Assembly: GCF_900176485.1 (NCBI RefSeq)
Contig: NZ_FWYD01000015.1
Span: forward strand, 20,093 to 84,092
DNA: 64,000 nt
Direction: 5' to 3'
Source: Primorskyibacter flagellatus
GTDB taxonomy: Bacteria > Pseudomonadota > Alphaproteobacteria > Rhodobacterales > Rhodobacteraceae
A model generated the notes under the pieces. That model was not told where the DNA came from, did not search any database, and was given only the letters and a program-made list of their open reading frames with translations. The position numbers were made by a program, and so were the translations under genes. How positions within the stretch are numbered: position 1 is the first letter of the stretch; each line of letters opens with the position of its first letter. Shown here piece by piece: positions 1 to 25,005 of this stretch.

Positions 1-138
1 ACGCGAGTTGTGGTGTCCGAGCCGCGCTTCAAGCCCAATAGCGCGACAGTCAATTTCTGGGATCGTTGGAGTGACGCGGCACCAGTTGCGGGAACGGAAG
101 ATGCCGTCCTTTCTTGGCGGAGACAAAGCAATCACTAG
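1..138 (+). CDS. possible C-terminal end of an unidentified protein, cut by window edge
   Basis: Reading frame 1 is open from the first base to a TAG at 136-138 and gives 45 residues, ending SWRRQSNH. The composition looks like ordinary protein (NFWDRWSDAAPV) and the frame is more natural than the other two. The family is not recognisable from this tail. It converges on the helicase gene that ends at 182. It could still be a chance open frame, because only 138 bases are visible. Confidence 0.35.
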   Translation, partial: TRVVVSEPRFKPNSATVNFWDRWSDAAPVAGTEDAVLSWRRQSNH

Positions 139-181
139 CCCTAGGAGCGATGAAAACAGTCAACGAGTATTGCCGCACATA

Positions 182-2353
182 TTATGCTGGGACGATTCTA
201 CCGACCATCGCGGTAAGAGTATCGGGCGCAAGCTTGGAAGAAATTGCATCCAACTCCAAGAGGGGCTGCGACAGGTAAGGATGAAACTTCTCCGACATTA
301 AATTCCCAGCTCCAGCGAACAGATCGACAGGTTCGCCAGATCGAATGTGCGCTAGTACCGTTTGAAGATCGGGGGTTTCGTCCCCGGCCTCCACCATCAG
401 AAACCCGTCATGCAGTTCGACCGAAAACCCCTCACTTCTCAGTGCTAGCGCGAGGGTTGATGTCTTCACAGTACCGACCCGCGTCGCAATGACTGATGTA
501 TGCTCGCCAATGGTGTGTAGGTTATTGGCCCTAAACCCCAGCTGTTCATAGTGAGCACGCGCTTCCTCGAGCATCATCAAAGAGACTGTATCCATGTAAG
601 CTGGGCTGGAATCCCCCTCGAGCACGGCGAACATTCGGTCGATCACTTTGTCATGAATGTCCCCCGCATCGCCGCCGAAGACGGGCGGCACACCAGCCTT
701 CGCGGGTTTGACGACGATGACCTTTTCACGATCATGGATTTCTTGAACAACCCAACGTCGCCCAGAGAATATTAATAGCATCCCAGGGGCAAGAACATTA
801 TCGATCGGCAGGGTTCCAAGGTCCCGCCCCTCTGCGACCAACCGGAATTCCTCAGGCGTCTGAAACACCGCATAGAAGCTGTAATGCTCAACCAGTTTTT
901 CGCCCGCGGGTCCCAAAAGCAACAGCCCGCTGCCGACCTGTTCGATCAAGCCGGTTTCTGGGTGGCCGATTGCACGCAACACATCTGCGAAGACTTCGGT
1001 TGTGACCTTCCGAAAGGGGCCTTCGCGGCAGAGCACATTGTAGACCACGCTTGCAGACGCACCGCCGCGCTGCGCTATGACTGACAGTATCTGGTGGACG
1101 AGCGTCGAGAGATGAAGCGCCTGAGGTTTTGGAGGTTCGCACCAGCCTTCCAGCAGCAAGTCTATCATCGCGATGGACCTGATCAGGCCGAGGCGAAGAC
1201 GATCCACGAAACTGCTCTCCGGCGTCAACTTGGCTTCGACAGCATACTGCCTGAGAATGGCCGGCTGTCCTTCACGCCGGCCTGATCGGCCAAGCCGTTG
1301 TCGCAACGCGGCGACGCTGAATGGCGCACCGATTTGAGCCACGCAGGTCACGTCACCGATGTCGATTCCAAGCTCGAGCGTCGATGTGCAAACGGCTGTC
1401 GTCGGTTTCGCAGGGTCCTTCAAGCGCCGCTCAACGAAGTCACGGTGTTCTCGGGAGAGGCTCGCGTGGTGGGGATAGAATTCCTGTGGCAGGTGCTCCC
1501 GTTCGCAAAGCTCCCGCAACCGATCTGCGTAAATCTCGACCCGTTGACGCGCTCCGGCGAAGACCAGGTTGTCGCTGCCTCGAAGGTGTTTGAAAAGATG
1601 TGCTGCGATCGCGTCCGTTGCGGATGGGCTGTTTTCATCTTCATCGCCGGAAAGGTAACCGCGAAGCTGAAGCTTCAATTCAGCCTCGCCGCCATCTGCT
1701 TCGATCAGCTGGACAGCGTTTGCGGCGTCAGGGCGAAGATAGGCCTTAGCGAGGTCCATGTCGCCTAGCGTAGCTGACAGACCTATCCGACGGATTGGGC
1801 GCTTTATCGCGAGCTCGAGCCGTGTGAGCAGTGAACGAAGCTGGACACCGCGTTCGCTGTCCAGAACTGTGTGCAGCTCGTCGATCACGACCGCCCGTGT
1901 CGCCCCAAACAGGCGGGCAATTTCCAAACCGCGACGAATGAAAAGCGCCTCAAGGGACTCTGGGGTTATCAGAAGGATCCCTTTTGGAGATATCAACGCG
2001 CGCGTCTTGATGGATTGCGAGACATCTCCGTGCCAGGGAACAACCGGAAGCTCTGCTTCCTGGCAGATGCCCTCCAGCCGCATGGCCTGGTCCGTGATCA
2101 GGGCTTTCAGCGGACCGATGTAGAGCAGGTCGAAGCCGGTGCCGCCCGACGGCTCGTCAAGCACCTGTGAAATCAACGGCAGGAACGCCGCCTCGGTCTT
2201 TCCGCCCGCCGTAGAAGCTGCAACGATTAAATCGGCATTGGATTCGCAGATCGTCCGGATGGATCGCGCCTGGATGTCGCGAAGTTCGCGCCAACCTTTC
2301 TGGCGTATCCATTTCTGCACAGGCCTCGCCAGTTTGTCGAACGCACTGCTCAT
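182..2353 (-). CDS. sngC: Shango defence system helicase SngC (Lhr/DEAD-like)
   Basis: This 723-residue superfamily 2 helicase has Walker A ASTAGGKT at residues 46-53, DELH (motif II) at 159-162, SAT at 194-196, STLELGIDIG near 325 and motif VI QRLGRSGR at 353-360. The core resembles Lhr and BrxHI helicases, followed by about 360 residues without a motif I recognise. It starts at ATG 2353, five bases past the end of the upstream ATPase gene, so it is translated from the same mRNA. Known of the family: Shango consists of a TerB-domain protein, an ATPase and a helicase. The identity as SngC is inferred from gene order and domains. It presumably acts on phage DNA or replication intermediates in the cytoplasm. 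Confidence 0.85.
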   Translation of the reverse strand: MSSAFDKLARPVQKWIRQKGWRELRDIQARSIRTICESNADLIVAASTAGGKTEAAFLPLISQVLDEPSGGTGFDLLYIGPLKALITDQAMRLEGICQEAELPVVPWHGDVSQSIKTRALISPKGILLITPESLEALFIRRGLEIARLFGATRAVVIDELHTVLDSERGVQLRSLLTRLELAIKRPIRRIGLSATLGDMDLAKAYLRPDAANAVQLIEADGGEAELKLQLRGYLSGDEDENSPSATDAIAAHLFKHLRGSDNLVFAGARQRVEIYADRLRELCEREHLPQEFYPHHASLSREHRDFVERRLKDPAKPTTAVCTSTLELGIDIGDVTCVAQIGAPFSVAALRQRLGRSGRREGQPAILRQYAVEAKLTPESSFVDRLRLGLIRSIAMIDLLLEGWCEPPKPQALHLSTLVHQILSVIAQRGGASASVVYNVLCREGPFRKVTTEVFADVLRAIGHPETGLIEQVGSGLLLLGPAGEKLVEHYSFYAVFQTPEEFRLVAEGRDLGTLPIDNVLAPGMLLIFSGRRWVVQEIHDREKVIVVKPAKAGVPPVFGGDAGDIHDKVIDRMFAVLEGDSSPAYMDTVSLMMLEEARAHYEQLGFRANNLHTIGEHTSVIATRVGTVKTSTLALALRSEGFSVELHDGFLMVEAGDETPDLQTVLAHIRSGEPVDLFAGAGNLMSEKFHPYLSQPLLELDAISSKLAPDTLTAMVGRIVPA

Positions 2354-2358
2354 CGGCG

Positions 2359-3666
2359 TCAGAGCTTGAAGCTGATCAGATCATCGTCACCGGGGTCTTG
2401 GGCACCAGTCGACTCGTCTACCTCGTTCATGTCTTCGCCGAGGTCTTCGGAGACCTCGATCTTTTCGATCAGATCGCTCCACTCGACACCGGGGTTTTGC
2501 TCAAGCACGGAAAGCAGGTTCACGAATGCCGTCACCGTATTGCGCGGGGTGCGGAAGTAAGCTTCACCGATCCGGTCCGAACAATGCGCCATGAAGGCCT
2601 CGAGCGCGTCGTCCGGCAGAGCACCGGCATCGTCCTGCATGATCCGCCGCACATTGGCCAGAAGAACGAAGAGATCTTCAGGGGTCAGGCTGGCCAGCCG
2701 GACAACCGGTCCTGAAAGGTCGACCAATCCGTCCCGCGCGAAGGTGTTCTCGGCCAAACGCGATTGAAGGGCTTCGTAGCTATAGAGCCCTCGACGGGTG
2801 TTCATCAGAAACTCCGGGGTTCCACCCATAAGGAATCCGAGGTTCTCGGCGCTACCCTGCAGCACATCGTTCAGGATCCGGAGGATCTGTTCGTAGTTTG
2901 CATTGCGGGCCTGCGACGAAGTGAGCTTGTAGAGGTTCACCATCTCGTCGAGGCCGACCAGCAATCCTTTATACCCGGCCTCGCACACGAATGCCGACAT
3001 CAGCTTCAGATGGTCATAGACACTGGCGTCGTCGATGATCGTTCGCACACCAAGTGCTTTGCGCGCGTCGGTGCGTGTCGCGAACTCGCCGCGCAGCCAT
3101 CTCAGGGCTGCGGATTTCAACTCGTCGTCGCCGGTCTCATGGCCTTCCCAATATCGACGGATGACTTCGGCGAACTCAAACCCTCCGGTAAGTTCTTCAA
3201 AGTGGCCAAGGCGTTCACGAATGACGGTCCCCGTGGGCAAATCCCGTTCTTCAGCATCTCGGTGAGCCTGGCTGACAAATCGCTCCACCACGCTGGCCAA
3301 TGCCCCGCCATCGGGCTTGGTCCGCGTCGAGAGGTTTCGGGCCATCTCGGCATACAGCCCGCGAGCTTGTCCGCCGGTCGCGTGAATGCGCCGATCTGGC
3401 GCTAAATCCGCGAACATCACGACCAGGCCTTTCTCCAGAGCCACGAGGCGGATCAGGTTCATGAAGAACGTCTTGCCCGATCCGTACTCCCCGATGATGA
3501 ACCGGATCGCCGATCCGCCATCGGATATCCGGTCCATGTCCTTGACGAGCTCTTCAATCTCTCGGACGCGGCCAACCTGAATATGGCGCAAACCGAGTTT
3601 GGGCACGACCCCGGCCCGAAGCGCCTGTACGATTGCATCGCGTTCACGTGGTTTCAACTTAGACAT
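2359..3666 (-). CDS. sngB: Shango ATPase SngB (BrxD-like, DUF2791 family)
   Basis: This 435-residue P-loop ATPase has Walker A GEYGSGKT at residues 59-66 and a probable Walker B, GLLVGLDE, at 234-241. The remainder (GGTPEFL, YEALQSRLAEN, FRTPRNTV) fits the BrxD/DUF2791 family of ATP-binding proteins, which work with an Lhr-like helicase in BREX type 2 and in Shango. I use ATG 3666, which overlaps the end of the TerB-domain gene by eight bases; an in-frame upstream start at 3681 is less likely. The C-terminal tail is acidic. No methyltransferase, PglZ or BrxC gene is near, so a BREX system is not indicated. Confidence 0.85.
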   Translation of the reverse strand: MSKLKPRERDAIVQALRAGVVPKLGLRHIQVGRVREIEELVKDMDRISDGGSAIRFIIGEYGSGKTFFMNLIRLVALEKGLVVMFADLAPDRRIHATGGQARGLYAEMARNLSTRTKPDGGALASVVERFVSQAHRDAEERDLPTGTVIRERLGHFEELTGGFEFAEVIRRYWEGHETGDDELKSAALRWLRGEFATRTDARKALGVRTIIDDASVYDHLKLMSAFVCEAGYKGLLVGLDEMVNLYKLTSSQARNANYEQILRILNDVLQGSAENLGFLMGGTPEFLMNTRRGLYSYEALQSRLAENTFARDGLVDLSGPVVRLASLTPEDLFVLLANVRRIMQDDAGALPDDALEAFMAHCSDRIGEAYFRTPRNTVTAFVNLLSVLEQNPGVEWSDLIEKIEVSEDLGEDMNEVDESTGAQDPGDDDLISFKL

Positions 3667-6187
3667 CCCTGCCCTCCGCACTCATCTTTTCTTTTACCGC
3701 CTCCGCAATTTCCAGAGACACGTCATATCCATCATACTCGTCGAGCAGTGCTTCGTTGTAGGTCTCAAAAGCCCATTCATTCACGACTTCCAAAGCCCCG
3801 GATGCCATCAACCCATGCGAGGCGCAGATCGTCTCGAACTCGGTTTCAGACCAATGCTCTCGAGTGACCAGTTCGAGGACAAGGGCGCCGTGTTTCGGGT
3901 CAAGCCCTACCAGCTGGCTTTGGCTGGCAGGCGCGGAGGCACCACTTTCTTCCTCTTTGACATCGAAAATCTGACCGAGGACGGACGACACGCGCTCTGT
4001 GTCCGAACGAATTGCTGCGATCCGTGAAGCGTCGAGTTTCGGTCCGCTGGCTTTTTCGAGCGCGGGTATCGCTTCGCCCGGGCGACCCGGTTGCGACGCG
4101 CGAACAGTGCGTGGACCATCCGCAACTTCGCCAGCATGCAGGTCGGTGTAGGCAAGCGCAGGATCAAGTCCCAAAGCCTTGTAGATTTTCTCGATGCTTG
4201 CGACTTCGTCGGAGTGAATAATGCCATCGGCATGTGCTGCACCGACCAGCGCTGCCCGCATAGCGGCTTGGCTGTCTTGGCCCACCTCCTTCAGTTTGCG
4301 CCGCAGAAGCGTCATGTCCGGTGGCACGGCCAGGAACCATTCAAGGTTTGCACGCAGCCTGCGGCGTTCCTGATCGCTGAGGGCCGTGGCAGAAACCTGA
4401 TCTTCCAACGCCCTGCGTTCAGGCTCCGCGATGCGACCATCAGCATGGGCGACTAACGACCCAAGTGCCAATTCGATCAAGGCGCTTCGATAGCTGTCGG
4501 AAACGTCCTCCAGTCTTTCGATGGGTTCGCCCAGACGAAACAGCACAACAGGCTCCTCCGTCTTGGGCGACCGGAGCGCAAACCGAGGGTCGGGCGCCAG
4601 ACCGAAACCGAGGCGCGCGAGCGCGTCGGCGGCTCCTGTCATTTGCCGTTTTCCGATCTTCTCGTTCGTTTCTCCCTCCAGTCGTCCGATCACCTCCTCA
4701 AGCGGCACCAATCCCCCGCGATCGACGATATCGCTTGCCCAAGATTTCAAGCGGTCCATTTCCTCTGATGGGAAAGCATCCCAAAGTTCAGAGGGTAGCA
4801 AGGCATGCGCTTCCACACTTCCGCGGCCGTCAGGGTTTCGGCCCAGGAAGCGACTGAGCTTGTCGAGGTCGTTCATCACCTCGTCAGCCAGCTCTTGCGC
4901 AATCTCGACCGGCTTGCGCAAGCCGGAGATGTCGGGCACGGGTTTGCCATCCACGGTCGGATTGACTGACCCCTGAAACTCGCTGGAGGCGGCGCGATAG
5001 GATGCCGTGAGTGATTTCCGGGGTTTTGTCACTTTGAGCCCATCAGGAAAACGCCGATCAAACCGCATACGGAAAAGAGCGACGAACTCGTCACGGCACC
5101 GCGTCGCGGGAGTTCTCAGATTTGTTTCCGGATGGCAGATGAACCAACTCAGCAACCAGTCAGCCGTCAGGTTCTCGCCTTTGTCGATCCGAGCTCCGAT
5201 TGCGTATTTGAGTGAGAACGGAAGTTCCCAGCCCTGCTTCTCGAAAATCGGTTCGATAGCGTCGAGGTCGGTTTCGGCAAGCATCGCAATGTCGAGGAAC
5301 TCACCCAAATAGCGCCTGACGGAGTGGTTGTCAGGGTAAAGTGACTGCAGCCGCCGAACTTCCTGGACGATATCCTTGGCATCTTCGTTGGACTGATCGA
5401 CGAAGAAGCGACGCTCCAGCCCGTAGAAGTACAGGAACATGTATCCGGGGTTGTAGGAGGCGTCGTTGCGCCCGCTGGCCAACCAGTCGAGGTAGGTCGC
5501 CCGGCACTGAGGTGAGATATCCGCGTATCCGGGCCAGTAAGGCATACCTTCACCAGCTTTGTCGGCTCCAGAGCGCGCGACAGACAGAGACGGATCGATA
5601 TAGGCTCGGCACTTGTCACGATACCCGTAGGTGTTCAGCAAGGGAGCCGTGCCGACATAGACCATCCCGCCGATGTTGCGGCCGGCGACGCTAGCTGTTT
5701 CATAAGACGGGACCCACCCGCTTTTCGATGATCGGACCGATGCGCTCGATGCCACTCGCGAGGGCTGATTTCGTTCAGCGGCCGCGGCAAGTGCCGGCGC
5801 CGCAGACTTTCCAGCCCGAACGATTTCAGCGTAGTCCTGCTTTGGTGGGGAGTAAGCCTGCACGGCAGCCGGCTGTTTGGACGCGTTGGCTTCGCGAGTT
5901 CGTTCGCGCTCACGCTCGATACGCTTGTCGTAGGCACTTGGGCGCGGCACCGGCTCAGGTCGGGGGGGTAGATTTTCGGAACTCCCCTCAGCTTGCGCCT
6001 TTGCAGCGACTTTCCGCGATCTCCGTTTTTCTTGCCACCAGACCAGAATGACGGGAACACCAAATGCAAACAACATCTGGCCGCCAATCGGCCAACCCTG
6101 AAGCATTGTGGTCACCACGACCATACATAAGAAAAAATACAGGACGAGAAAGAATGTAATTCGGAAAAACTTGATTATTGAAGACAT
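3659..6187 (-). CDS. sngA: Shango TerB-domain membrane protein SngA
   Basis: This 842-residue protein opens with two hydrophobic stretches (about residues 8-30 and 36-50), consistent with membrane anchoring, then a charged low-complexity linker to about residue 170. The next part fits a TerB-N domain (conserved region around YWPGYADI and YFYGLERR, about 205-300). A central TerB-like helical domain lies near 560-680, where HADGRI and HADGII occur as paired acidic motifs that could bind metal. A TerB-C-like end follows. It is the first gene of a three-gene operon with the ATPase and helicase, which is the Shango composition. Domain limits are estimates by eye. The exact role of the TerB protein is not known to me. 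Confidence 0.85.
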   Translation of the reverse strand: MSSIIKFFRITFFLVLYFFLCMVVVTTMLQGWPIGGQMLFAFGVPVILVWWQEKRRSRKVAAKAQAEGSSENLPPRPEPVPRPSAYDKRIERERERTREANASKQPAAVQAYSPPKQDYAEIVRAGKSAAPALAAAAERNQPSRVASSASVRSSKSGWVPSYETASVAGRNIGGMVYVGTAPLLNTYGYRDKCRAYIDPSLSVARSGADKAGEGMPYWPGYADISPQCRATYLDWLASGRNDASYNPGYMFLYFYGLERRFFVDQSNEDAKDIVQEVRRLQSLYPDNHSVRRYLGEFLDIAMLAETDLDAIEPIFEKQGWELPFSLKYAIGARIDKGENLTADWLLSWFICHPETNLRTPATRCRDEFVALFRMRFDRRFPDGLKVTKPRKSLTASYRAASSEFQGSVNPTVDGKPVPDISGLRKPVEIAQELADEVMNDLDKLSRFLGRNPDGRGSVEAHALLPSELWDAFPSEEMDRLKSWASDIVDRGGLVPLEEVIGRLEGETNEKIGKRQMTGAADALARLGFGLAPDPRFALRSPKTEEPVVLFRLGEPIERLEDVSDSYRSALIELALGSLVAHADGRIAEPERRALEDQVSATALSDQERRRLRANLEWFLAVPPDMTLLRRKLKEVGQDSQAAMRAALVGAAHADGIIHSDEVASIEKIYKALGLDPALAYTDLHAGEVADGPRTVRASQPGRPGEAIPALEKASGPKLDASRIAAIRSDTERVSSVLGQIFDVKEEESGASAPASQSQLVGLDPKHGALVLELVTREHWSETEFETICASHGLMASGALEVVNEWAFETYNEALLDEYDGYDVSLEIAEAVKEKMSAEGRDV

Positions 6188-6582
6188 TATCGGAACCCTC
6201 TCCGAACCACACTATTTTGCACAGCCATCTTTGCAACGACTAACGTCATGGTTGAAGCACTTCCCATGCTTTATGCTTGATTGGGCCGATGGCCACATAC
6301 ATCTGTTCGCACCGTTGCGGGCACACCCCTGCCCCAGTGACCGTAACCGGAACGGCCGAGATGAAGCGTTGCCACGACCATGCGACGGCTGGTCGGGCTG
6401 GCTCCGGAGGAGACGGCCGGGCCAGCGGCACGTCGCAGGGAGAGGCGGCGTTTCAGCTCGGGGAGGGCGGCTGCGCGCAGCCGACCGAGTAGGGCGCGGT
6501 CCTGGCCAAAGGGCGGGAGGGGCCAATGTTCCCCTTGAATGCTTCAACTTAAGAATCAAAAGTTACTTCAACGGCAGGGCCA
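6188..6582. other. 395-bp spacer between sngA and the next gene
   Basis: This holds the upstream region of the sngABC operon (an AT-rich stretch near 6110-6240 fits a promoter for it) and the leader of the plus-strand gene at 6583. The open frames inside (for example 6212-6559 on the minus strand) have biased, non-protein-like composition. I see no recognisable gene, although the segment 6240-6540 is very GC-rich and could be decayed coding DNA. Confidence 0.4.
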
Positions 6583-7185
6583 TTGAGACAGGCGGAACAC
6601 ACTTTGATTGAGCTGAAAATCGAACTGGTTGGCATCAAACCACCCATCTGGCGCCGTATCGTCGTGCCGAATGACATCAGCTTGGACATCCTGCATTCCG
6701 TTCTCCAGGGCGCTATGCCTTGGCAAGACTATCATTTGCATGAGTTCGAGATTGGCGAAGACAGGTTCGAGGCCCGCGACGAAAGTGACGACAGCTGGGA
6801 CCCTACCGATGGGCGGAAGGACGAGAAGAGGTTTACTCTTGGAAAGCTGGTCAAGAAAGGCAGTCAGTTCACATACACTTATGATTTCGGCGATGGCTGG
6901 CGGCATCTCGTCACCGTTGAGAAGTTTAGCAAACCAACCGGAAGACCAGATCTGGACTTTCCCGCCTGTGTTGACGGAGAGCGAGCCTGCCCGCCAGAGG
7001 ACTGTGGAGGACCCTACTCTTACGAAGAGTTTCTCGACGCGCTGACCGACAAACACCACCCGGAACATCGCGATACAAAGCAATGGGCGGGCGCGTTCGA
7101 ACCGGAAGTGTTCAGCGTGCAGCAAGCCAATGCTGCCGTCGGTGCGATGTTTGTATGGGCAAAAGAACGCCACAATCGAAAGTGA
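6583..7185 (+). CDS. plasmid pRiA4b ORF-3 family protein
   Basis: This 200-residue protein contains the signature of the pRiA4b ORF-3-like family: IELVGIKPPIWRRIVVP near the start, then LDILHSVLQGAMPW..YHLHEFEIG, and later FTYTYDFGDGWRH, CPPEDCGGPYSYEEFLDAL and WAGAFEPEVFSV. The family is common on alphaproteobacterial plasmids, and its biochemical role is not established. There is no ATG. TTG 6583 gives the full frame, and TTG 6604 has a better-placed GGCGG. It stands alone between Shango and AbiE. Confidence 0.85.
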   Translation: MRQAEHTLIELKIELVGIKPPIWRRIVVPNDISLDILHSVLQGAMPWQDYHLHEFEIGEDRFEARDESDDSWDPTDGRKDEKRFTLGKLVKKGSQFTYTYDFGDGWRHLVTVEKFSKPTGRPDLDFPACVDGERACPPEDCGGPYSYEEFLDALTDKHHPEHRDTKQWAGAFEPEVFSVQQANAAVGAMFVWAKERHNRK

Positions 7186-7422: not shown

Positions 7423-8262
7423 ATGTCGCCCATGAGTGGACAAGAACACGAAAAACTAAAGAGTCTTCTTGAGGCTGTCCCCACGGGGTTCCTCGTGGAC
7501 TCCGCCTGGCTGGAGCACCACGGGATAGGTCGGCGTTCGTCCTACGGCTATGTGCAACGCGGCTGGCTAGAACGCCTAGGACGCGGAGTGTTCCGCCGTC
7601 CCGCACCAAGCAGCGCCACCACGAATACGCTCGACTGGAAGACCAGCCTGCTCTCGCTCCAGCACATCATGCACTACCCTGTCCATATCGGGGGGGCGAC
7701 GGCATTGGGCCTGCAAGGCTATGCGCACTACCTCTCACTCGGCGACAAGAGCACAGTCTGGCTCTACGGCTCAAAAATCCCCAACTGGCTCGAAAAACTG
7801 CCGCTCAACACCGAACTCCGCACACGCAGCGTATCGCTGTTCTCCGATCCAGAGTTGGGTGTCAATGACGCGCGAAATAATCTCAACGAGACAGCATCGT
7901 CCCTGCCATGGGACTGGAAACTGGTGATGTCCTCGCCGGAACGCGCCATCCTCGAAGCGCTTGACGAGTTGCCGGATCAGGAGAGCTTTCACAACCTCGA
8001 CATGGTGTTCGAAAGCCTGACGACGTTGCGCCCAAGAACCCTCTCGGCACTGCTCAGAAGTTGCAAGAAGATCAAGGTCAAACGCCTGTTCTTCGTGTTC
8101 GCCGACCGCCACGACCATGCCTGGCGCAAGCGTCTCGATCCGGAAGACTTCGACCTCGGCAGCGGGGATCGCGCATTGGTCAAAGGCGGCAAGATACATC
8201 CACGCTACAGGATCATGGTGCCCGAAGAGTTTGTAAGAAAGGAACGTGGTGATGGCGCGTGA
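7423..8262 (+). CDS. abiEi: AbiEi-family antitoxin (type IV toxin-antitoxin)
   Basis: This 279-residue protein has an N-terminal winged-helix segment (residues 10-60; LVDSAWLEHHGIGRRSSYGYVQRGWLERLGRGVF) followed by the AbiEi antitoxin domain (HIGGATALGLQGYAHYL, then SPERAILEALDELPD). Known of the family: AbiEi represses its own operon and counters the AbiEii nucleotidyltransferase. Its stop overlaps the start of the toxin gene by 11 bases, so the two are co-translated. It starts at ATG 7423 (alternative 7432). About 240 bases upstream are free for the promoter. Confidence 0.85.
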   Translation: MSPMSGQEHEKLKSLLEAVPTGFLVDSAWLEHHGIGRRSSYGYVQRGWLERLGRGVFRRPAPSSATTNTLDWKTSLLSLQHIMHYPVHIGGATALGLQGYAHYLSLGDKSTVWLYGSKIPNWLEKLPLNTELRTRSVSLFSDPELGVNDARNNLNETASSLPWDWKLVMSSPERAILEALDELPDQESFHNLDMVFESLTTLRPRTLSALLRSCKKIKVKRLFFVFADRHDHAWRKRLDPEDFDLGSGDRALVKGGKIHPRYRIMVPEEFVRKERGDGA

Positions 8263-9169
8263 AGACTATGCCGCCCAAGTGGCCCTGCTCGTACGGGTAC
8301 TTCCATATGTGGCGAAGGAGGAGATATTTGCGCTCAAGGGCGGGACGGCCATCAACCTCTTCTATCGCGACCTTCCGCGCCTCTCGGTCGATATCGATCT
8401 GACCTATCTGCCTGTCAAGGACCGCGCCGACAGCCTCGTCGAGATCAACGACGCGATGGACCGGATTACCGCCGCCATCGAAGGCGGCATCGCCGGCGCC
8501 AAAGCGCAGCGAATTGCCGGCGGTGGCGGCGGCGCCACGCGTGCGCTCGCCCGCCTCGGCACAGCCGAAATCAAAATCGAAACCTCCCCCGTTACCCGGG
8601 GCGTCGTGCATGATCCGGAACAACGCGAAGTCTCCGAAGCCGTCGAGGAGGCGTTCGGATATGCGACGATGAACATCGTCTCCTTCGAGGATTTGTTCGG
8701 CGGCAAGCTACATGCGGCCCTAGATCGCCAGCACCCGCGAGACCTCTACGACGTTAAACTGCTCTACGAGAACGAAGGGTTTACCGACGAGTTGTTCCGC
8801 ACGTTTCTGATCTACCTCGCGAGTTCACCACGCCCGCCGCACGAACTGCTGAATCCAAACCTGATCGATCTAGATCAGCCCTACGCGCGGGAATTCGAGG
8901 GCATGACGAAGGAAGCAGTCGACCTAACGGAATTGGTCTCAACGCGCGACCGCCTGATCGGTGATATCCAATCCCGCTTGGATGAGGGCGCGAAGAGGTT
9001 TCTGAGAACCCTGCATGACGGCGATCCAGACTTCGACGCGATCGACCGCCCTCAAGCGGCCGAGCTTCCAGCGGTCCGATGGAAGCTCATCAACGTGAAC
9101 AAGCTGAAAGCAGAAAACCCCAAGAAGCATGCCGCCCAAGGGGAAGAGTTGGAGAAGCTCCTCGGCTGA
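8252..9169 (+). CDS. abiEii: AbiEii/AbiGii-family nucleotidyltransferase toxin
   Basis: This 305-residue protein has the DNA polymerase beta-type nucleotidyltransferase signature: KGGT at residues 29-32, followed by SVDIDL with the metal-binding aspartates at 47 and 49. Known of the family: AbiEii toxins transfer nucleotides to tRNA and cause phage abortive infection or growth arrest. I prefer ATG 8252, preceded by AAGGA at the proper distance, over the in-frame GTGs at 8246 and 8249. It follows the antitoxin with an 11-base overlap. It looks intact. Confidence 0.88.
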   Translation: MAREDYAAQVALLVRVLPYVAKEEIFALKGGTAINLFYRDLPRLSVDIDLTYLPVKDRADSLVEINDAMDRITAAIEGGIAGAKAQRIAGGGGGATRALARLGTAEIKIETSPVTRGVVHDPEQREVSEAVEEAFGYATMNIVSFEDLFGGKLHAALDRQHPRDLYDVKLLYENEGFTDELFRTFLIYLASSPRPPHELLNPNLIDLDQPYAREFEGMTKEAVDLTELVSTRDRLIGDIQSRLDEGAKRFLRTLHDGDPDFDAIDRPQAAELPAVRWKLINVNKLKAENPKKHAAQGEELEKLLG

Positions 9170-14479: not shown

Positions 14480-14495
14480 CTTAACAGCTGTTAAG
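14480..14495. repeat. palindrome copy 2 (candidate parS) overlapping the repC stop codon
   Basis: The same 14-base palindrome as the copy at 14423, extended by one base pair on each side to 16 bases. It overlaps the TAA of repC at 14491-14493. I did not see the motif elsewhere in the window, which favours a role specific to this replicon. Confidence 0.65.
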
Positions 14496-15702
14496 CTGCA
14501 GATCGTCGCCCAATCAATGCCATGACCATCGGCCCACAGGAGAACTCGCCGGCCGCAGCTTTGGCAGTCAGAGCTCGCAAGTATCCACCAGGCGATCTTA
14601 TGTCGGCGAAGCGTTCCAGCATCGCAGCAACGACGATCGACGCTTGCTCCGGACCCATGAACCGCTGTGCTTCTTCCCATGCAGACGCACTGATCCCCAT
14701 GGCTGGCCGCACATGGCCCGCCGCATCGAAAAGCTGATGCCAATGCCGGATCTCACCTTGGTAGAAGGTCTTCAGCGAGGGACATGCCGCTATCACTAGG
14801 TGAAGCGGGATCTTTGGCAGATGTCTTGTGTCCTGTTCATCAACGTCAGCCACCGGCTCATTCGTATCCACATCTGGCACACCCGCCGCCGCCCCGCTTT
14901 TTTCTAAAGCCGGCTCAAAATCTATAGATTCTTTATTTGAATTATGATGGTGACGCTCAGATTGGGCATCATTGGTGTTCATTTCTTCTGTTTCAGGGCC
15001 ATCAATGATGTTGCGTGCCTGGTCAAGGAGAGCTTCAAGATCGGCTCGATAGGCCGCGAGGTCCTCAATTGAAAGCTTGCGGCGAAGCGCGCGGGCTGTG
15101 AGGGCAGCCTTGTCGCGAAGCTGATCCCAGAAGCCTAGGCCTGGCTGCATCTCGTCTCCGAACTCGGCGAGGGCCGCGAGATCGCGTCGCATGAGGCTTA
15201 CGACCTCTCTCAGGCGCCTGACGCGCTCCTCAGCCTCACGTACGGCCTCTGCGGCCCGTGCTATCTCCTCGGACTGGCAGTAGAGCGGGGAAAGATCGAA
15301 GCCAAAGGCGACGCGGTCTTCGCCGTGCTTGCGGACGTAGCGCTTCCCATTGGGGCTATCGCGCCGCTGGAGCAAGCCAGCCTCGACGAGACGCGCGAGG
15401 TGACGACGCATCGTTGAGCACGGCATGCCATTCAGGCGCTCGCAGATCGCCTTGTTCGAGGGGAAGACGACCATCTCGGCGTTCCCGCCAAGCGCATCGT
15501 CCGGAAAGAAGCTGAGGAGCCCCTGCAAAACAGTCAGATCACGTTCCGAGACCCCAAAGGCCGCTTGCGCCTTGGAGAGCTCGCGCAGGAGTTCCCACTT
15601 GTTAACGGGTCTGGCCGGAACAGATGCCTCGGGTCGCTCGATGACGCGCAAATGAGCGTGCGAAATCGGCCGCATAAACGGCGAAATTGGTGTGTACTCC
15701 AT
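14491..15702 (-). CDS. repC: plasmid replication initiator RepC
   Basis: This 403-residue protein starts EYTPISPFMRPISHAHLRV, typical of repABC initiators. Next come the helix-turn-helix half (CSTMRRHLARLVEAGLLQRRDSPNGKRYVRK), a coiled-coil (about residues 155-240), an acidic low-complexity linker and the conserved C-terminal domain (HLVIAACPSLKTFYQGEIRHWHQLF to SPGGYLRALTAKA). Known: RepC binds the origin inside its own gene and limits copy number together with an antisense RNA. It is the third gene of repABC, separated from repB by about 210 bases carrying that RNA. ATG 15702 is used; a GTG at 15714 is possible. Confidence 0.93.
   Translation of the reverse strand: MEYTPISPFMRPISHAHLRVIERPEASVPARPVNKWELLRELSKAQAAFGVSERDLTVLQGLLSFFPDDALGGNAEMVVFPSNKAICERLNGMPCSTMRRHLARLVEAGLLQRRDSPNGKRYVRKHGEDRVAFGFDLSPLYCQSEEIARAAEAVREAEERVRRLREVVSLMRRDLAALAEFGDEMQPGLGFWDQLRDKAALTARALRRKLSIEDLAAYRADLEALLDQARNIIDGPETEEMNTNDAQSERHHHNSNKESIDFEPALEKSGAAAGVPDVDTNEPVADVDEQDTRHLPKIPLHLVIAACPSLKTFYQGEIRHWHQLFDAAGHVRPAMGISASAWEEAQRFMGPEQASIVVAAMLERFADIRSPGGYLRALTAKAAAGEFSCGPMVMALIGRRSAA
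14897..14999. other. AT-rich segment inside repC, candidate origin of replication
   Basis: A sharply AT-rich stretch (TTTTTTCTAAAG to TTTATTTGAATTATG) interrupts the otherwise GC-rich repC gene and encodes its low-complexity linker. In repABC plasmids the replication origin is inside repC at such a segment. No DnaA box was identified with confidence. Confidence 0.5.
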
Positions 15703-15752
15703 GAAAATGTTCACGAAGACAAAAATTCTAGGGCCCGCGAATCGCTTTGCGC

Positions 15753-15781
15753 TTGCGGGGTAGGGGCCAGAACGCTACATT
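15753..15781 (+). promoter_or_regulatory. candidate promoter for the repABC antisense RNA
   Basis: TTGCGG at 15753-15758 and TACATT at 15776-15781, separated by 17 bases, form a good sigma-70-like promoter on the strand opposite to repABC. It directs transcription into the terminator that ends near 15878. Confidence 0.5.
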
Positions 15782-15787
15782 CAGAAG

Positions 15788-15878
15788 TGCGAAAACTGAG
15801 ATTTTGTAGCGGGCTGATCCCGGTGCGAAACCTTACAAAGGTCTCGTGAAGCTAGCTTCTCGGGGCCTTTTTCTTTTT
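15788..15878 (+). ncRNA. antisense RNA (ctRNA/incA type) of the repABC replicon
   Basis: Between repB and repC, on the strand opposite to the operon, a promoter-like pair is followed by about 90 bases ending in a strong stem-loop and U tract. Known: every repABC replicon studied encodes a small counter-transcribed RNA at this position. It pairs with the repC leader, lowers RepC translation and acts as an incompatibility determinant. Start and length are estimated from the promoter and terminator. Confidence 0.65.
15839..15878 (+). terminator. rho-independent terminator of the antisense RNA
   Basis: The arms AGGTCTCGTGAAGC (15839-15852) and GCTTCTCGGGGCCT (15855-15868) pair over 14 positions, with two G-T wobbles and one mismatch, around a 2-base TA. 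They are followed by TTTTCTTTTT. On the other strand there is no U tract, so it is directional for the plus-strand RNA. Confidence 0.75.
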
Positions 15879-15915
15879 GCCTGTATCGTGCCTCCTTCTT
15901 GTTGGTTGCTCTTCC

Positions 15916-16845
15916 TCAGTCTTCTGAACGCTTCCAGCGCTCATGAAGCTCGGTAATCAGCTTTGGGGCATTGCCCTCCAACCAGCTGATAAAATCAGGT
16001 TCATCCGTAGTCAGATCGAGTTTAAGCTGCTTGCCTTGGCGGCTGGTCTTGACCGTCGCAGCTCCGACACCGGGGATCGCCAAAGCAGGCACGCCTTTTC
16101 TAGACGGGCTTGCTTTCTTCTCTGCGCTCTTCGCGGCTGCCAGAACTGCGAGAAACGCACGCTCAGAAACCTCATCGACCGAGCCGGAACTTTCGGACTT
16201 GGCTGCATGAGCTACGGCTTGCAGTTGGTCTCGATCACCGTCGTAGGCACCCAAAGCCTTTTTGAGCTCTTCCCATCTCGGGCGACCAATCCCGGGAGCC
16301 GCACCAATTGCCTGGATGAGTTCCTCGCCGACCGTCCGAACGACACTCAAGAGTTGTGAAACCCCGGCTTCGTGGAGGTTAAGGACTTCGGCGACACCTC
16401 GATTGGTGCGCTCAGCCCCTTCCAAATGATCACCGTCCAGAAGTGCCGTCGCAACGAGCGCACGCTCAATAAAGCTCAGATCACGACGCTCTTGGTTCTC
16501 GAGAAGCTGATCTCGAAGCGCTTGATCACCCTCAACCTCTGTGACGATGGCTCGAACTTTGATACCGAGTTCGCGACATGCTTCCAAGCGTCTGCGGCCA
16601 TAGATCAGGTTGTAGCGATCGCCTTCCAGTGGGCGCACCAAGACGGGCACACGCTGACCGTTCTTGGAAATAGAGTTCTTCAGGCCCTCAACTTCAATCT
16701 GAAGCCTGTCATCCAACCGTCCTTCGGTAAGGATCTGCGCCGGATCGATCTCAAATACACCGCCACGCAGTCGGCGCCCTTCAAGAGCGTCAGGAGCGTT
16801 GCGAAGGGTCTGCAGCGGCAGGCCAAGTTTAGGCTTTCTTGCCAT
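15916..16845 (-). CDS. repB: plasmid partition protein RepB (ParB family)
   Basis: This 309-residue protein starts MARKPKLGLPLQ. It has the ParB nuclease-like N-terminal domain with GQRVPVLVRP and the box YGRRRLEACRELG (about residues 90-105), then the ENQERRDLSFIERA motif, a helix-turn-helix region (NRGVAEVLNLHEAGVSQLLS) and a C-terminal dimerisation part. It binds the plasmid centromere and works with RepA. Start ATG 16845 overlaps the repA end by 17 bases. An upstream start at 16884 would lie deep within repA. Confidence 0.93.
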   Translation of the reverse strand: MARKPKLGLPLQTLRNAPDALEGRRLRGGVFEIDPAQILTEGRLDDRLQIEVEGLKNSISKNGQRVPVLVRPLEGDRYNLIYGRRRLEACRELGIKVRAIVTEVEGDQALRDQLLENQERRDLSFIERALVATALLDGDHLEGAERTNRGVAEVLNLHEAGVSQLLSVVRTVGEELIQAIGAAPGIGRPRWEELKKALGAYDGDRDQLQAVAHAAKSESSGSVDEVSERAFLAVLAAAKSAEKKASPSRKGVPALAIPGVGAATVKTSRQGKQLKLDLTTDEPDFISWLEGNAPKLITELHERWKRSED

Positions 16846-18022
16846 TCCGACCCCATGTGTTCTGGATGATTTCAGCGATCTCATCGTTCACTGCGTTCAT
16901 GGATTCGATCGCACGATCAAACGTCTGACGCGTGAAGTCCTTTTTGTCAGCTTCGTAGAGCGTTTGCTTGGTCAAGCCGGCATCAGATATTGCGGTCGAT
17001 TCAACCATGTGATTGGTCAGGACCGACCTCCCAAACAGCCCGCGAATGAAGGCGATGACTTCGGTTTGTGGCGCGTCGCCGACTTTGTATCGCGTTGGCA
17101 AGAAGCGCAGCCAATCGAAGCGCAGATTTGCGCCTGCATCCCTGATCACTCCCAGGAGATCCGCAGTCATTCGCAGGAATTGAGACATCGACATGAGGTC
17201 AAGCATCTGCGGGTGAACCGTCACGAGGACACCCGAGGACGCAGAAAGTGCTGACATCGTCAAGAAACCAAGCTGCGGCGGGCAGTCGATCACAACAACG
17301 TCGTAGTTTGCTTCAACACTATCGAGTGCGTCATGAACTCTCGCGAAGAACGCCTTCGCTCCGCCTCGCTGGATAGCAGCAGGCGTCTCGTGCTCGAACT
17401 CCATGAGTTCAAGGTTGCCCGGGATAAGATCAAGGCCGCGGATGTAAGTCTTGCGGATCACTTCGGCGATCGGAACCGGATCGTCGTAGCGAACGGCATC
17501 ATAGAGGGTTCCGCCCTCCATAAGGTCGAGTTCTGGCTGGATTCCATGAAGAGCCGAAAGAGATGCTTGGGGGTCGAGATCGATCGCAAGAACCCTGTAC
17601 CCCTTTAGCGCCAAGCGCTGAGCGAGGTGAGCAGACGTCGTCGTTTTGCCGGAGCCGCCCTTGAAGTTCACCACTGATATGACTTGAAGCTCGTCACCGT
17701 CGCGACGCCCAGGCACGTAAGTTCCAGACTTTTTTGCATTTCCTTCAAGCGTCTGCCGGATTTCCCAGATATCGTCGAGCGTATAGCGGCGATGACTTCC
17801 CGCCGTCGTCTCGACGTCAACGATCTTTCCTTCTCGATGAAGCTTCCGAAGATAGGTATGGTCGACGCCAAGGAGCTCAGCAGCTTCGCCGCTGGTCAAA
17901 GTGCGCATCACCTTCTTTGCATCTGGTGGGAAGTGCGCAGCGCGCTGAGCATGCAGGTTCGACGCGAGAAGTTCCGCGTAGTGCCCGATGGCGATATCAA
18001 GATCCTGTTCTGCTTCGCTCAT
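16829..18022 (-). CDS. repA: plasmid partition ATPase RepA (ParA family)
   Basis: This 397-residue protein has an N-terminal helix-turn-helix (about residues 40-90, TLTSGEAAELLGVDHTYLRKL). The deviant Walker A is KGGSGKTT at 121-128, the switch AIDLDPQASL follows, and Walker B is VVVIDCPPQLGFL. Known of the family: RepA moves plasmid copies together with RepB and represses the operon promoter. It is the first gene of repABC. About 190 bases upstream are free of genes and must contain the operon promoter; I could not fix the -35/-10 with confidence. Confidence 0.94.
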   Translation of the reverse strand: MSEAEQDLDIAIGHYAELLASNLHAQRAAHFPPDAKKVMRTLTSGEAAELLGVDHTYLRKLHREGKIVDVETTAGSHRRYTLDDIWEIRQTLEGNAKKSGTYVPGRRDGDELQVISVVNFKGGSGKTTTSAHLAQRLALKGYRVLAIDLDPQASLSALHGIQPELDLMEGGTLYDAVRYDDPVPIAEVIRKTYIRGLDLIPGNLELMEFEHETPAAIQRGGAKAFFARVHDALDSVEANYDVVVIDCPPQLGFLTMSALSASSGVLVTVHPQMLDLMSMSQFLRMTADLLGVIRDAGANLRFDWLRFLPTRYKVGDAPQTEVIAFIRGLFGRSVLTNHMVESTAISDAGLTKQTLYEADKKDFTRQTFDRAIESMNAVNDEIAEIIQNTWGRNGKKA

Positions 18023-19438: not shown

Positions 19439-20485
19439 TCACCCGTCCTCGATCTCCAGACCTTGTGCTTTCATGGCCTTTAGCAGAGAACGGCGCAGCG
19501 CATCTTTGCCAAATGCCCGCAGATCGTCGTTGAAATCGCCCATGTTTGGTACGAGATCACCACAGGTAATTCCAAGCGATTCCAGTTGGTTAAGCAATCT
19601 TATTGATGCGTCGCGTCCAGCTTCGTCATTGTCCCGCGCGATCCAGATACGCTTGATCCTCGGCGGCGGGATGAAGAGGCCGAGATGGGTGGCAGTGAGA
19701 CAGGAGGCGAGATCGAACTCGGGGAGAGCCGTGCCGACCGAGAGGGTGTTCTCGAGACCTTCACCGACGATGAGATCGCTGCGCGCCTTGCCGGACCAGA
19801 AGCGGATGGCATGGCCGTGCAGCTGTCCGAGGATCCGCTTCGGGCTCTCGATCTCGGCCAAACCGCCGGTGGACGGGTCGAGAAAAACCCTTGCGCATCC
19901 GGTGATCTGGCCGCGATTGTCGGTGATCTTTGCCAGTAGGGCAGGGGCCCGTTCCAGCAGATCGGGGTCGTCCTCGCCCTGCCGCAGGAAGACACGCGCG
20001 TGATAGCGCAGGGCCGGGCCGAGCCGTGTGATCCCGCGCCCCTGCAGATAGGTGGCGGCCAAGGTGCCAAACACCGGCTTGCCAGCAGCGAAAAGTTTGC
20101 GCGCCCGCGCGATGCGTTTGCTGGAGGCTGCATCCGGGCGCTCAGCCCTTTGGGTGTCTCGAGGTACGGCAGGGCAGGGGGCTTCGCCGAGGAAGGATCG
20201 AGCCTCCCTCAGGGTCTCCTTGAGCGTGACAGACCCAAGCCGTTCATGCAGCAGGTCGATCAGGTCGCCATATTCACCCGTCGCGAAATCTTGCCAGGAC
20301 CCGGCTTTACGACCAACCTGCGCCTGCAGACGGATGGCGAGGCTCTGGCCCTTTGCACCGGACGTGTCGCCGACCTGCCAATAATTACCCAGCTTGCGCC
20401 CCTCGGGGAAATACTGGCGGCAGAAACTCTCGGCATGGTCTGCCAGATCGGCCGAGAGGTCCGCGATACTGTGGCGCGCGCTCAT
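19439..20485 (-). CDS. Toprim-domain primase-like protein
   Basis: In this 348-residue protein, residues 1-100 resemble the DNA-binding part of plasmid primases (GSWQDFATGEYGDLIDLL). The Toprim core follows, with LIVGEGLENTLSVGTALPEFD (catalytic Glu in VGEG) and IWIARDNDEAGRDA (the DxD/DxN pair). A CHC2 zinc finger is not evident. It starts at ATG 20485, sharing ATGA with the stop of the helicase gene upstream, so translation is coupled. It probably primes or processes plasmid DNA during transfer or replication. Confidence 0.82.
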   Translation of the reverse strand: MSARHSIADLSADLADHAESFCRQYFPEGRKLGNYWQVGDTSGAKGQSLAIRLQAQVGRKAGSWQDFATGEYGDLIDLLHERLGSVTLKETLREARSFLGEAPCPAVPRDTQRAERPDAASSKRIARARKLFAAGKPVFGTLAATYLQGRGITRLGPALRYHARVFLRQGEDDPDLLERAPALLAKITDNRGQITGCARVFLDPSTGGLAEIESPKRILGQLHGHAIRFWSGKARSDLIVGEGLENTLSVGTALPEFDLASCLTATHLGLFIPPPRIKRIWIARDNDEAGRDASIRLLNQLESLGITCGDLVPNMGDFNDDLRAFGKDALRRSLLKAMKAQGLEIEDG

Positions 20486-23400
20486 GCGGCGGCCTCCGAT
20501 GTGCCGGCGCCAACTGGATGCTCGGCAAGGACCCGTGTCAGCACCTCGATGCCGTCGACCGGAATGAACACCCGCGTCTTCCACTGGATCACTTCCGTGA
20601 AACAGCCCATTGCCTTCAGTCCGGGCAGGGCCGCGCCTGAAGCACCTATCAGCTCAAGCCTCGGCTGCCCCATGACCAGCGACCGGCGCAGCTGATAGCC
20701 GCCGAGGAGGTTCAGCGTCGTCCTGGCTTCCATCACGGCGGCGAGCACTTCCCGCGGCGTCATCTCGATCTGGCAATCGAGACCAAGGCGTGCAAAGACA
20801 TTGAGAAGCTGCTCCTGGCTGACCAGTCGACCGATGGCGCGCTCCCCATCCTCGGTCTGAAGGCGGTAGATGCGCATGTTGTCAGCGGGAAGCCGATCCC
20901 AGATCGGCAGGAGAAGCCCGCAGATGAGCGTAATCTTTGAGGTGGTGAACTCCGGCACTGCCTCGACCTCGGCCTGCCAGAGCTGTTCGAATATCGCATC
21001 ATCGATCTCTTCCCAGTGCGACTTCGAGAACTCGGTCAGCGCGAGGATTTCTGTGGCCATCGGACGCAGAAGCTTCACCCGCAGGATCGGCACGCCGTCC
21101 TCGTCCATGAAGGCCGGCGCATTCACCATCAGCGCCGCGCGTTTGGAGGAGGTGTTCCAGCACAGCGTCGCGCCGTCCGTATTTGCGCAGATCGATTTGA
21201 TCCGGGGCAGGGTGAGCGGATCGTTGCGATCGGTACGCTCCACGGTCAGCGCAGTTGCCGTTGCGCCCGTAGCCCCGTGCTCGAAGATGACCTTGCGGTC
21301 GACGATTTCGAATTTCTCGGCCTTGAGCGTTTCGAGGCCGACATCGAGCGTGCCTGCCTGGCGCGCATCTTCGATGATGGCCGAGAGGAACCCGCCGAAG
21401 GCCTCGAAGATCGCGTCCTGCATGTCGATGCGGAGCGCGAGGCAACGATTCAGGAACTGCTGGATCGGCGGCAGGGTCTCTTTCATCGTGCCATCCGCTT
21501 CATCGAGCGTCAGCCCAGTCATCTCCTGGAATTTCGCATAGGAGCAGGCCTCGATCTTACCCGCACGCAGCTTGTAGAAGAACTGGCGCAGCGCAGCGCG
21601 TGCGTAGGGGCTCTCAAGGTTGTCCTCGGCACGGAACATGTTCTGACCGCCGGTCTCGCGCTGTCCCTTGGTGATGGCACCCAGCGTGTCGAGGCGGCGG
21701 GCGATGGTGGAGAGAAAGCGCTTCTCGCCCTTCACGTCTGTGGCGACGGGGCGAAAGAGTGGCGGCTGCGCCTGGTTCGTGCGGTTGGTCCTCCCGAGAC
21801 CCTGAATCGCATTGTCGGCCTTCCACCCGGGCTCCAGGAGGTAATGCACCCGAAGGCGCTGGTTCTTGGCCCCGAGATCGGCGTGGTAGCTGCGCCCGGT
21901 GCCACCCGCATCGGAGAAGATCAGGATGCGTTTTGCATCGTCCATGAAGGCCTGGGTTTCGCCGAGGTTGGAGGAGGCGGGGCGGTTCTCGACCTTGAGC
22001 CGCCCCTCACGCGTCTTGACGATGCGCCGCTTGCGCCCCGTGACCTCAGCCACTGCATCGCCTCCGAAATGCCAGAGGATCTGGTCGAGCGCGCCCTGCA
22101 CCGGGGCGAGGGCCCCAAGATGCTCGACAAGATCATCCCGCCGCCGCTCCGCCTCGCGGCAGATGATCGGGTTGCCATCGCAATCGAGGGCGGGGCGCGA
22201 GCGCAGATCGCCATTCTCGTCGGTGTAAGGCTCAAAAAGCTGCGTCGGGAAGCTGTGCATCAGGTAGTCCATGATGTTCTCCCTCGGCGTGAAATCGACC
22301 TGCAGATCGTCCCAGTCCGAGGAAGGGATCTCTTCAAGGCGGCGTTCCATCACCGCTTCGCTGGTCGAGACCACCTGAATCACGGCCGAGTGCCCTGCTG
22401 CAAGGTCCGCCTCGATGGCGCGGATCAGCGAGGGACATTTCATGGCGGTGATGAGATGGTTGAAGAAGCGCTGCTTGTTGCTCTCGAAGGCCGAACGCGC
22501 GGCGGATTTCGCTTGGGCGTTCAGCGTGCCGGTCTCAGAAGAAATACCCGAGGCCTGAAGCGCTGCCTCAAGGTTGTTGTGGATGATCTGGTAGGCATCG
22601 GCGTAGCTGTCGTATATGGCGACTTGAGCGGGGCTCAGCTCATGGACCAGCATCTCGTATTCGACCCCGGCATAGGAGAGGGACCGCGCCAGATAGAGCC
22701 CAAGCGCCTTCAGGTCGCGCGAGATCATCTCCATGGCCGCAATGCCCCCGGCCTCCATCGCGGCGACGAACTCGGCCCGCGTCACGAAGGGGAAATCGCC
22801 GGTGCCCCAGAGACCGAGGCGCGAAGCATAGGCAAGATTGCCGACGACTGTGGCACCGGTCGCCGAGACATAGAGAACCCGTGCATCGGGCGCGGCGTTC
22901 TGCAGCGCGAGGCCAGCGAGGCCCTGCTGGGACGCCTTCTTGTCGCCGCGGTCGGACTTTTCTCCGGCAGCATTCGCCATGGCATGGCTTTCATCAAAAG
23001 CAATGACCCCGTCGAACCCATCGCTGAGCCAGGACGTGACCTGATCGAGGCGGGAGGCTTTGCCCTCACGTTCAGCCGAGCGCAGCGTGGCGTAGGTGAC
23101 GAAGAGGATGCCCTCGGGCAGGCGGATGTCGCTGCCCTGGCGGAACTTCGAGAGCGGCACGATATCGCTTTCGCGTCCCCCGAGCGCTATCCAGTCGCGA
23201 CGCGCATCTTCGATGAGCTTGTCGCTCTTCGAGACCCAGACCGCCCGTCGGCGCCCTTTGAGCCAATTATCGAGGATGATACCGGCAACCTGTCGCCCTT
23301 TACCGCATCCCGTGCCATCACCCAGAAACCAGCCCTTGCGCAGGCGAAACGCGCCTTCGTCGCCCTCGGCCGCCGCCATCAACTGGCCTTCGATCTCGCC

Positions 23401-24879: not shown

Positions 24880-25005
24880 CGGCAATCTCCGGGGTTTAGG
24901 GTTGGCCCCAAGCCCCGCGCGCACTCTCTCACCCGGGAGGGGTCACCCCTCCTGCCCTGCCTCTCGCTCTTTCATGGCAAAGCCCCGGTGCGAATTCGCC
25001 CGTTA

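Follow-up and report, generated by a model that had tools for sequence, protein, structure and literature searches.

Shango is a three-gene defence system that was reportedly first described by Millman et al. in 2022. In the accessible part of one report (PMC10250203), the Shango genes of Pseudomonas aeruginosa PA14 are printed in the order TerB protein, ATPase and helicase, and this Shango protects strain PAO1 in the tests described. The accessible text of a second paper (PMC12278908) groups the helicase SngC with BrxHI, DruE and DpdJ in what its authors regard as a potentially distinct clade of defence helicases, and a plasmid-borne Shango with the layout described here has already been published for Sulfitobacter faviae (PMC10221251). 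Here, we analysed a window of 64,000 nucleotides from Primorskyibacter flagellatus (bases 20093-84092 of an 84,092-base contig), in which three adjacent open genes on the minus strand, at window positions 182-6187, form a complete and ordinary Shango operon, sngABC, a member of the known kind. The three genes, their order and their domains are like those of Shango in PA14 and E. coli, as judged by profiles and published order and not protein to protein, whereas the present operon is on a plasmid-type contig rather than in a chromosomal hotspot.

Identity and layout of the operon

The genes comprise 842, 435 (or 440) and 723 codons and are located as follows (aa, amino acids):
3659..6187, minus strand: sngA, 842 aa; from the N terminus, a membrane hairpin, a variable linker, TerB_N, a middle domain, TerB and TerB_C
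2359..3666, minus strand: sngB, 435 aa from the ATG at 3666; BrxD-like AAA+ ATPase
182..2353, minus strand: sngC, 723 aa; Lhr-type superfamily 2 helicase

An initial annotation, made from the letters of this DNA, had claimed a complete Shango-type operon and proposed a check against PADLOC and other profiles. In this check the best PADLOC profiles were SngA (338.3 bits), SngB (585.9 bits) and SngC (899.7 bits), each matched over nearly its full length, and no BREX or Dpd model came out best, so that neither outcome named in the annotation as refuting arose; the three matches within one operon bear out the claim, and the Shango identity is near certain. The SngA match covers residues 117-834 of the protein and positions 13-526 of the 528-position profile, so the membrane hairpin of this 842-residue SngA is outside the profile. 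Pfam domains at E ≤ 0.001 were TerB_N, TerB and TerB_C in SngA, BrxC_BrxD (509 bits) in SngB, and DEAD and Helicase_C in SngC, in agreement with the annotated TerB membrane protein, BrxD-like ATPase and Lhr-like helicase, the coordinates of which were exact. The annotated junctions were also exact: sngA and sngB overlap by 8 bases (3659-3666), counted from the sngB ATG, and sngB and sngC are separated by 5 bases (2354-2358). A GTG at 3681 is also possible as the sngB start, giving a gene of 440 aa at 2359-3681. This three-gene arrangement with its motifs and domains is far beyond chance.

SngB and SngC are distant relatives of BrxD and BrxHI of the bacteriophage exclusion (BREX) system, and the operon might be taken for a fragment split off from BREX or Dpd, as SngB also matches BrxD (157 bits), and SngC also matches BrxHI (373.8 bits) and the Dpd helicase models DpdJ (93.4 bits) and DpdF (55.3 bits). 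The Shango profiles outscore all of these PADLOC models by far, the NCBIfam BrxD model gives SngB 154.3 bits, well short of its cut-off of 350, and SngA was the only PADLOC model matched by the SngA protein. A search of the genome (4.4 Mb, 73 contigs, listed completeness 100) with PF10923 returned a single protein, namely SngB, with no BrxC as a second member, and a genome search for PglZ gave no matches; this operon has a TerB protein instead. Because the genome is without PglZ and without a second BrxC/BrxD-family gene, the operon is not a piece of BREX. A BREX fragment was therefore ruled out by the profile scores together with the missing PglZ and BrxC, and a Dpd fragment by the profile scores alone, Dpd genes not having been sought genome-wide; the probability of a detached part of either system is close to nil.

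The order is kept among relatives. In 80 loci found with SngA, which are the best 80 of at least 493 confirmed relatives, sngB follows sngA in 76 and sngC follows in 71; the nine exceptions are four loci at contig ends (L030, L043, L051, L089) and five with a cut-short SngA or SngB (L027, L064, L065, L087, L094). The 8-base overlap is shared by 53 of the 76 loci, and 31 of the 71 have the 5-base gap. As the initial annotation had held, this is the known sngABC order, in agreement with the accessible print for PA14 (PMC10250203).

Proteins and predicted function

The domains and motifs of the three proteins are located as follows:
6008..6187, minus strand: SngA aa 1-60, two predicted transmembrane helices with basic residues after the second, at a hydropathy peak
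5105..5704, minus strand: SngA TerB_N domain, aa 162-361 (Pfam)
4112..4522, minus strand: SngA TerB domain, aa 556-692, with two HADG motifs
3662..3937, minus strand: SngA C-terminal domain, aa 751-842, winged-helix-like in the model and acidic (D+E 19, K+R 5)
3469..3492, minus strand: SngB Walker A sequence motif GEYGSGKT, aa 59-66
1871..1882, minus strand: SngC motif II DELH, aa 158-161; D158, E159 and H161 invariant and L160 nearly so (27 sequences)
1277..1300, minus strand: SngC motif VI QRLGRSGR, aa 352-359; invariant except L354, which is nearly so (27 sequences)

The AlphaFold2 model of SngA (mean predicted local distance difference test score 80.1, predicted template modelling score 0.50) has helices at residues 2-27 and 34-71, and an N-terminal hydrophobic peak was present in 35 of 40 SngA rows, four of the other five being stretches that start inside the protein. 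Foldseek with the whole SngA model returned nothing at E ≤ 0.001, no solved relative was found by sequence at E ≤ 0.1, and no effector fold was recognised by Pfam or by whole-model structure comparison. In SngB, the D240-E241 pair is present, and G59, Y61, G62, G64, K65, T66, D240 and E241 are invariant in 16 sequences; its solved relatives by sequence at E ≤ 0.1 were none save two marginal GTPase matches. SngC carries motif I ASTAGGKT at aa 46-53. Of the residues of motif I, DELH, SAT (193-195) and motif VI, only S47, G50, L160 and L354 show any variation among 27 sequences, and even these are nearly invariant. Thus the Walker A, DELH and QRLGRSGR motifs described as intact are all present and conserved among relatives. 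The best solved relative of SngC is Lhr, both by sequence and by fold, whereas SngC is only 19% identical to the Lhr-Core helicase and is within a defence operon.

Of the 22 loci compared, 13 had unsaturated dS for all three genes (values of L013 and L029 identical); in these, the ratio of nonsynonymous to synonymous substitution rates (dN/dS) was well below 1 throughout, at 0.077-0.189 in sngA, 0.017-0.055 in sngB and 0.067-0.332 in sngC. SngB was the most conserved protein in 22 of the 22 loci, while the lowest residue identity was that of SngA in 14 and of SngC in the other 8. Positive selection on SngA was considered and none was seen: its highest dN/dS, in the linker (aa 61-156), was 0.32 pooled over 16 loci, which is still below 1.

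We consider it fairly probable that the complete and intact sngABC, on what is likely a conjugative plasmid, defends its host against phages by means of a membrane-held complex of ATPase and helicase, which is likely to bind and remodel phage DNA. This prediction is backed by the profiles, the domains, the order in relatives, the conserved motifs, dN/dS below 1, the hairpin, and the Lhr and TerB matches; the SIR2-HerA, AbiE and Hachiman genes of the contig, described below, were also counted in its favour, as were the published protection of PAO1 by PA14 Shango and the grouping of SngC with other defence helicases. SngA would sit in the inner membrane by its N-terminal hairpin, and its TerB and acidic C-terminal domains would hold the complex there. 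SngB may act as a BrxD-like AAA+ switch or loader, and SngC as an Lhr-type translocase that would run on intermediates of phage replication or entry and stall or unwind them. Pfam found no nuclease domain in SngA, SngB or SngC; therefore any cutting would be left to other enzymes. These steps are a reasoned guess, and the literature searched, mostly without subscription papers, held no solved Shango mechanism.

The same membrane hairpin would also fit abortive infection, in which SngB and SngC would sense phage DNA and switch on SngA, whose hairpin would in turn damage the membrane and halt the infected cell. The lack of a nuclease domain by Pfam in the operon and the lowest residue identity of SngA in 14 of the 22 loci speak for it, while the lack of a recognised effector fold in SngA speaks against it, and we rate it as unlikely.

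Exchange edges and downstream modules

Two segments mark the edges of the operon in comparisons with relatives:
182..361, minus strand: sngC 3' switch segment, where relatives with another downstream module change sequence
6188..6256, minus strand: short upstream stretch, part of the exchanged block in several relatives as judged by block edges

Of 91 aligned rows, 37 lose DNA similarity to the operon at window 171-280, within or adjoining the sngC end, and 14 lose it at 6220-6256, just upstream of sngA. In others the match breaks off within the 5' part of sngA, whereas in distant rows similarity fades earlier and is uninformative. The promoter is presumably located in the 6188..6256 stretch; a sigma-70 promoter scan of window 1-6700 gave a sole sigma-70-like site, on the opposite strand, where 1.8 were expected by chance. 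The switch is sharp in the Heliomarina locus L026, with identities of 99-100% at 2000-601 and 98-100% at 600-401, then 70-77% at 361-272, and a PD-(D/E)XK nuclease and a UvrD helicase gene downstream. Loci L008, L012, L013 and L029 also switch at window 280, although on the AbiE side they match at about 95% as far as the 7,400-base query extends. The published plasmid 4 of S. faviae SCSIO W1865 (NZ_CP116427; PMC10221251, available part) has the same layout and also carries AbiE, with 94.2% DNA identity over the 5.9 kb matched, and its match likewise ends at window 280, inside the sngC tail.

Among 86 SngC rows, the next module was SIR2-HerA in 12, PD-(D/E)XK in 7, PDC-S46 in 7, DUF4297-HerA in 6 and SbcCD-like in 6, with 38 modules unclassified, 10 cut off and some records appearing twice. 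The labels are rough: the gene in L054 (labelled SbcCD) is really SIR2-like, and the HerA match in L074 (labelled DUF4297-HerA) is only distant. The operon behaves as an exchangeable cassette with a varying downstream partner, with exchange edges within the last ~180 bp of sngC, an observation that is new here. We read the pattern as homologous recombination with the conserved operon as anchor; it is worth a note and is not a claim of a new system.

The tail of SngC follows the module among close relatives. Where SngC bodies were at least 95% alike, mean tail identity was 0.92 between sequences sharing a module (21 pairs, minimum 0.61) and 0.60 between those with different modules (48 pairs, maximum 0.78), a difference reached in 0 of 5000 label shuffles (19 sequences). 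At 90-95% the values were 0.84 (8 pairs) versus 0.62 (48 pairs), and below 90% the effect was gone (0.52 in 8 pairs versus 0.49 in 77). This analysis left out 6 of 38 classified rows, namely L011, which is the L008 record, and L016, L019, L054, L069 and L074 with distant or weak assignments. One reading of this pattern would make the end of sngC a site of docking and exchange, at which a membrane-held, DNA-sensing Shango core would plug into differing effector modules (SIR2-HerA, an AddAB-like nuclease-helicase pair, PDC-S46 or DUF4297-HerA), the last ~60 SngC residues being swapped as they couple to the module. However, this tail pattern is also explained by ordinary homologous recombination with linked flanks: L031 and L048 have identical tail ends with different modules, and L009 and L034 show a similar exchange at the 5' end of sngA, which encodes the membrane hairpin and linker. 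Functional coupling of tail and module was not accepted, as the sequences are related and 38 of the 86 rows are unclassified and 10 cut off; docking has a slim chance, and recombination is preferred.

Shango is flanked upstream by SbcCD-like genes and downstream by the candidate defence protein PDC-S46 in seven loci (L009, L034, L035, L037, L041, L059 and L062).

PD-(D/E)XK and UvrD genes directly follow sngC in L008:1-5894, L011:2391-8437, L012, L013, L026, L029 and L047, with a gap of 2 bases between sngC and the PD-(D/E)XK gene in the annotated L008, L012 and L013, and a further DEAD-type helicase after the pair in L011, L013, L026 and L029. The PD-(D/E)XK protein (884 aa) had no PADLOC match at E ≤ 0.001, and the UvrD partner matched only general helicase models such as GajB at this threshold and scored 274.5 bits with the alphaproteobacterial AddA model, below the cut-off of 860.75. 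This AddAB-like pair is possibly an unlisted defence module, and no published report of it beside Shango was found in the literature search, which was mostly without subscription papers. It might even indicate that Shango is the core of a larger machine needing a downstream nuclease module, here lost or replaced by SIR2-HerA: sngC runs directly into the pair in these relatives, and a search of 390 genomes of the order found the PD-(D/E)XK protein in 4 (E ≤ 1e-30), directly after sngC in 3 of them. Against this, the pair is the next module in just 7 of 86 SngC rows (L008 and L011 being one record, and 10 rows cut off), other modules occupy the same slot, and three-gene Shango is active in the accessible published tests (PMC10250203). 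The pair was also seen once without Shango beside it, at L138:6391-12464, with no SngABC match in the 1.5 kb covered upstream and no such gene seen in the open frames of the surrounding 20 kb. Phaeobacter sp. G2 has a natural operon of the five-gene kind. A five-gene Shango as an obligate system was thus rejected as a general rule, and dependence on such a module is improbable. The nuclease is linked to Shango and is not a constant part of it; in the present genome the PD-(D/E)XK protein had no match at E ≤ 1e-30, and HerA and SIR2 occupy the slot after sngC.

Plasmid context and spread

RepC, ParB/RepB and ParA genes are at window 14491-18022, and homologues of VirB4, VirB6, VirB10 and VirB11 are between window 47557 and 57426. 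To the left of the window (locus L002) there are genes for a relaxase and a VirD4-type protein. Based on these replication, type IV secretion and mobilisation genes, the contig is likely a conjugative plasmid. Its other defence genes are as follows:
L002:17358-18383 and the next gene, ending at window 138, plus strand: SIR2-HerA pair, convergent with sngC and 43 bases away; PADLOC 419 bits (SIR2) and 789 bits (HerA, taken from the copy in locus L006, a 100.0% match to L002)
7423-9169: AbiEi/AbiEii type IV toxin-antitoxin pair (PADLOC)
57709-61250: Hachiman pair, HamA 484 bits and HamB 1367 bits

The operon is plasmid-borne and often has RepABC and conjugation genes as neighbours, which would suit an action mainly against competing plasmids rather than phages; however, the published Shango data, in the parts available, concern phages, and we hold this to be very improbable.

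One Shango allele has spread almost unchanged over several bacterial genera. The first 7,400 bases of the window are 100.0% identical to a plasmid of Sulfitobacter sp. THAF37, 99.97% to one of Ruegeria sp. THAF33, and 99.99% to contigs of Pelagimonas phthalicica and three Ruegeria strains, and a Marivita metagenome-assembled genome matches window 1-7168 at 99.7%. SngA itself is sporadic, present in 13 of 398 genomes in the phylum sample and in 16 of 390 genomes of the order, one of the latter a weak fragment. On a Pseudohalocynthiibacter plasmid (L014 and L083, one record), the Shango copy is split by IS5-family transposase genes.

Other features were also observed on the contig. A stretch at window 6327-6620, before a pRiA4b ORF-3 gene, recurs at about 95% in plasmids matching only from 6327 (H121-H123). 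A Strawberry-notch-type helicase gene (AAA_34 and Helicase_C_4) at window 20482-24924 is also annotated on several related plasmids. A DUF2235 protein with a Tle1-like phospholipase catalytic domain of the type VI secretion system (L002:9285-10706) adjoins the mobilisation genes.

In conclusion, this study adds a well-supported copy of Shango, on a contig with three other defence systems, and shows one Shango allele near-unchanged across several genera. The cassette edges suggest a natural minimal unit of the three genes plus ~70 bp, which is useful for cloning, and the AddAB-like pair beside Shango in relatives raises the question of whether Shango hands DNA to a nuclease.
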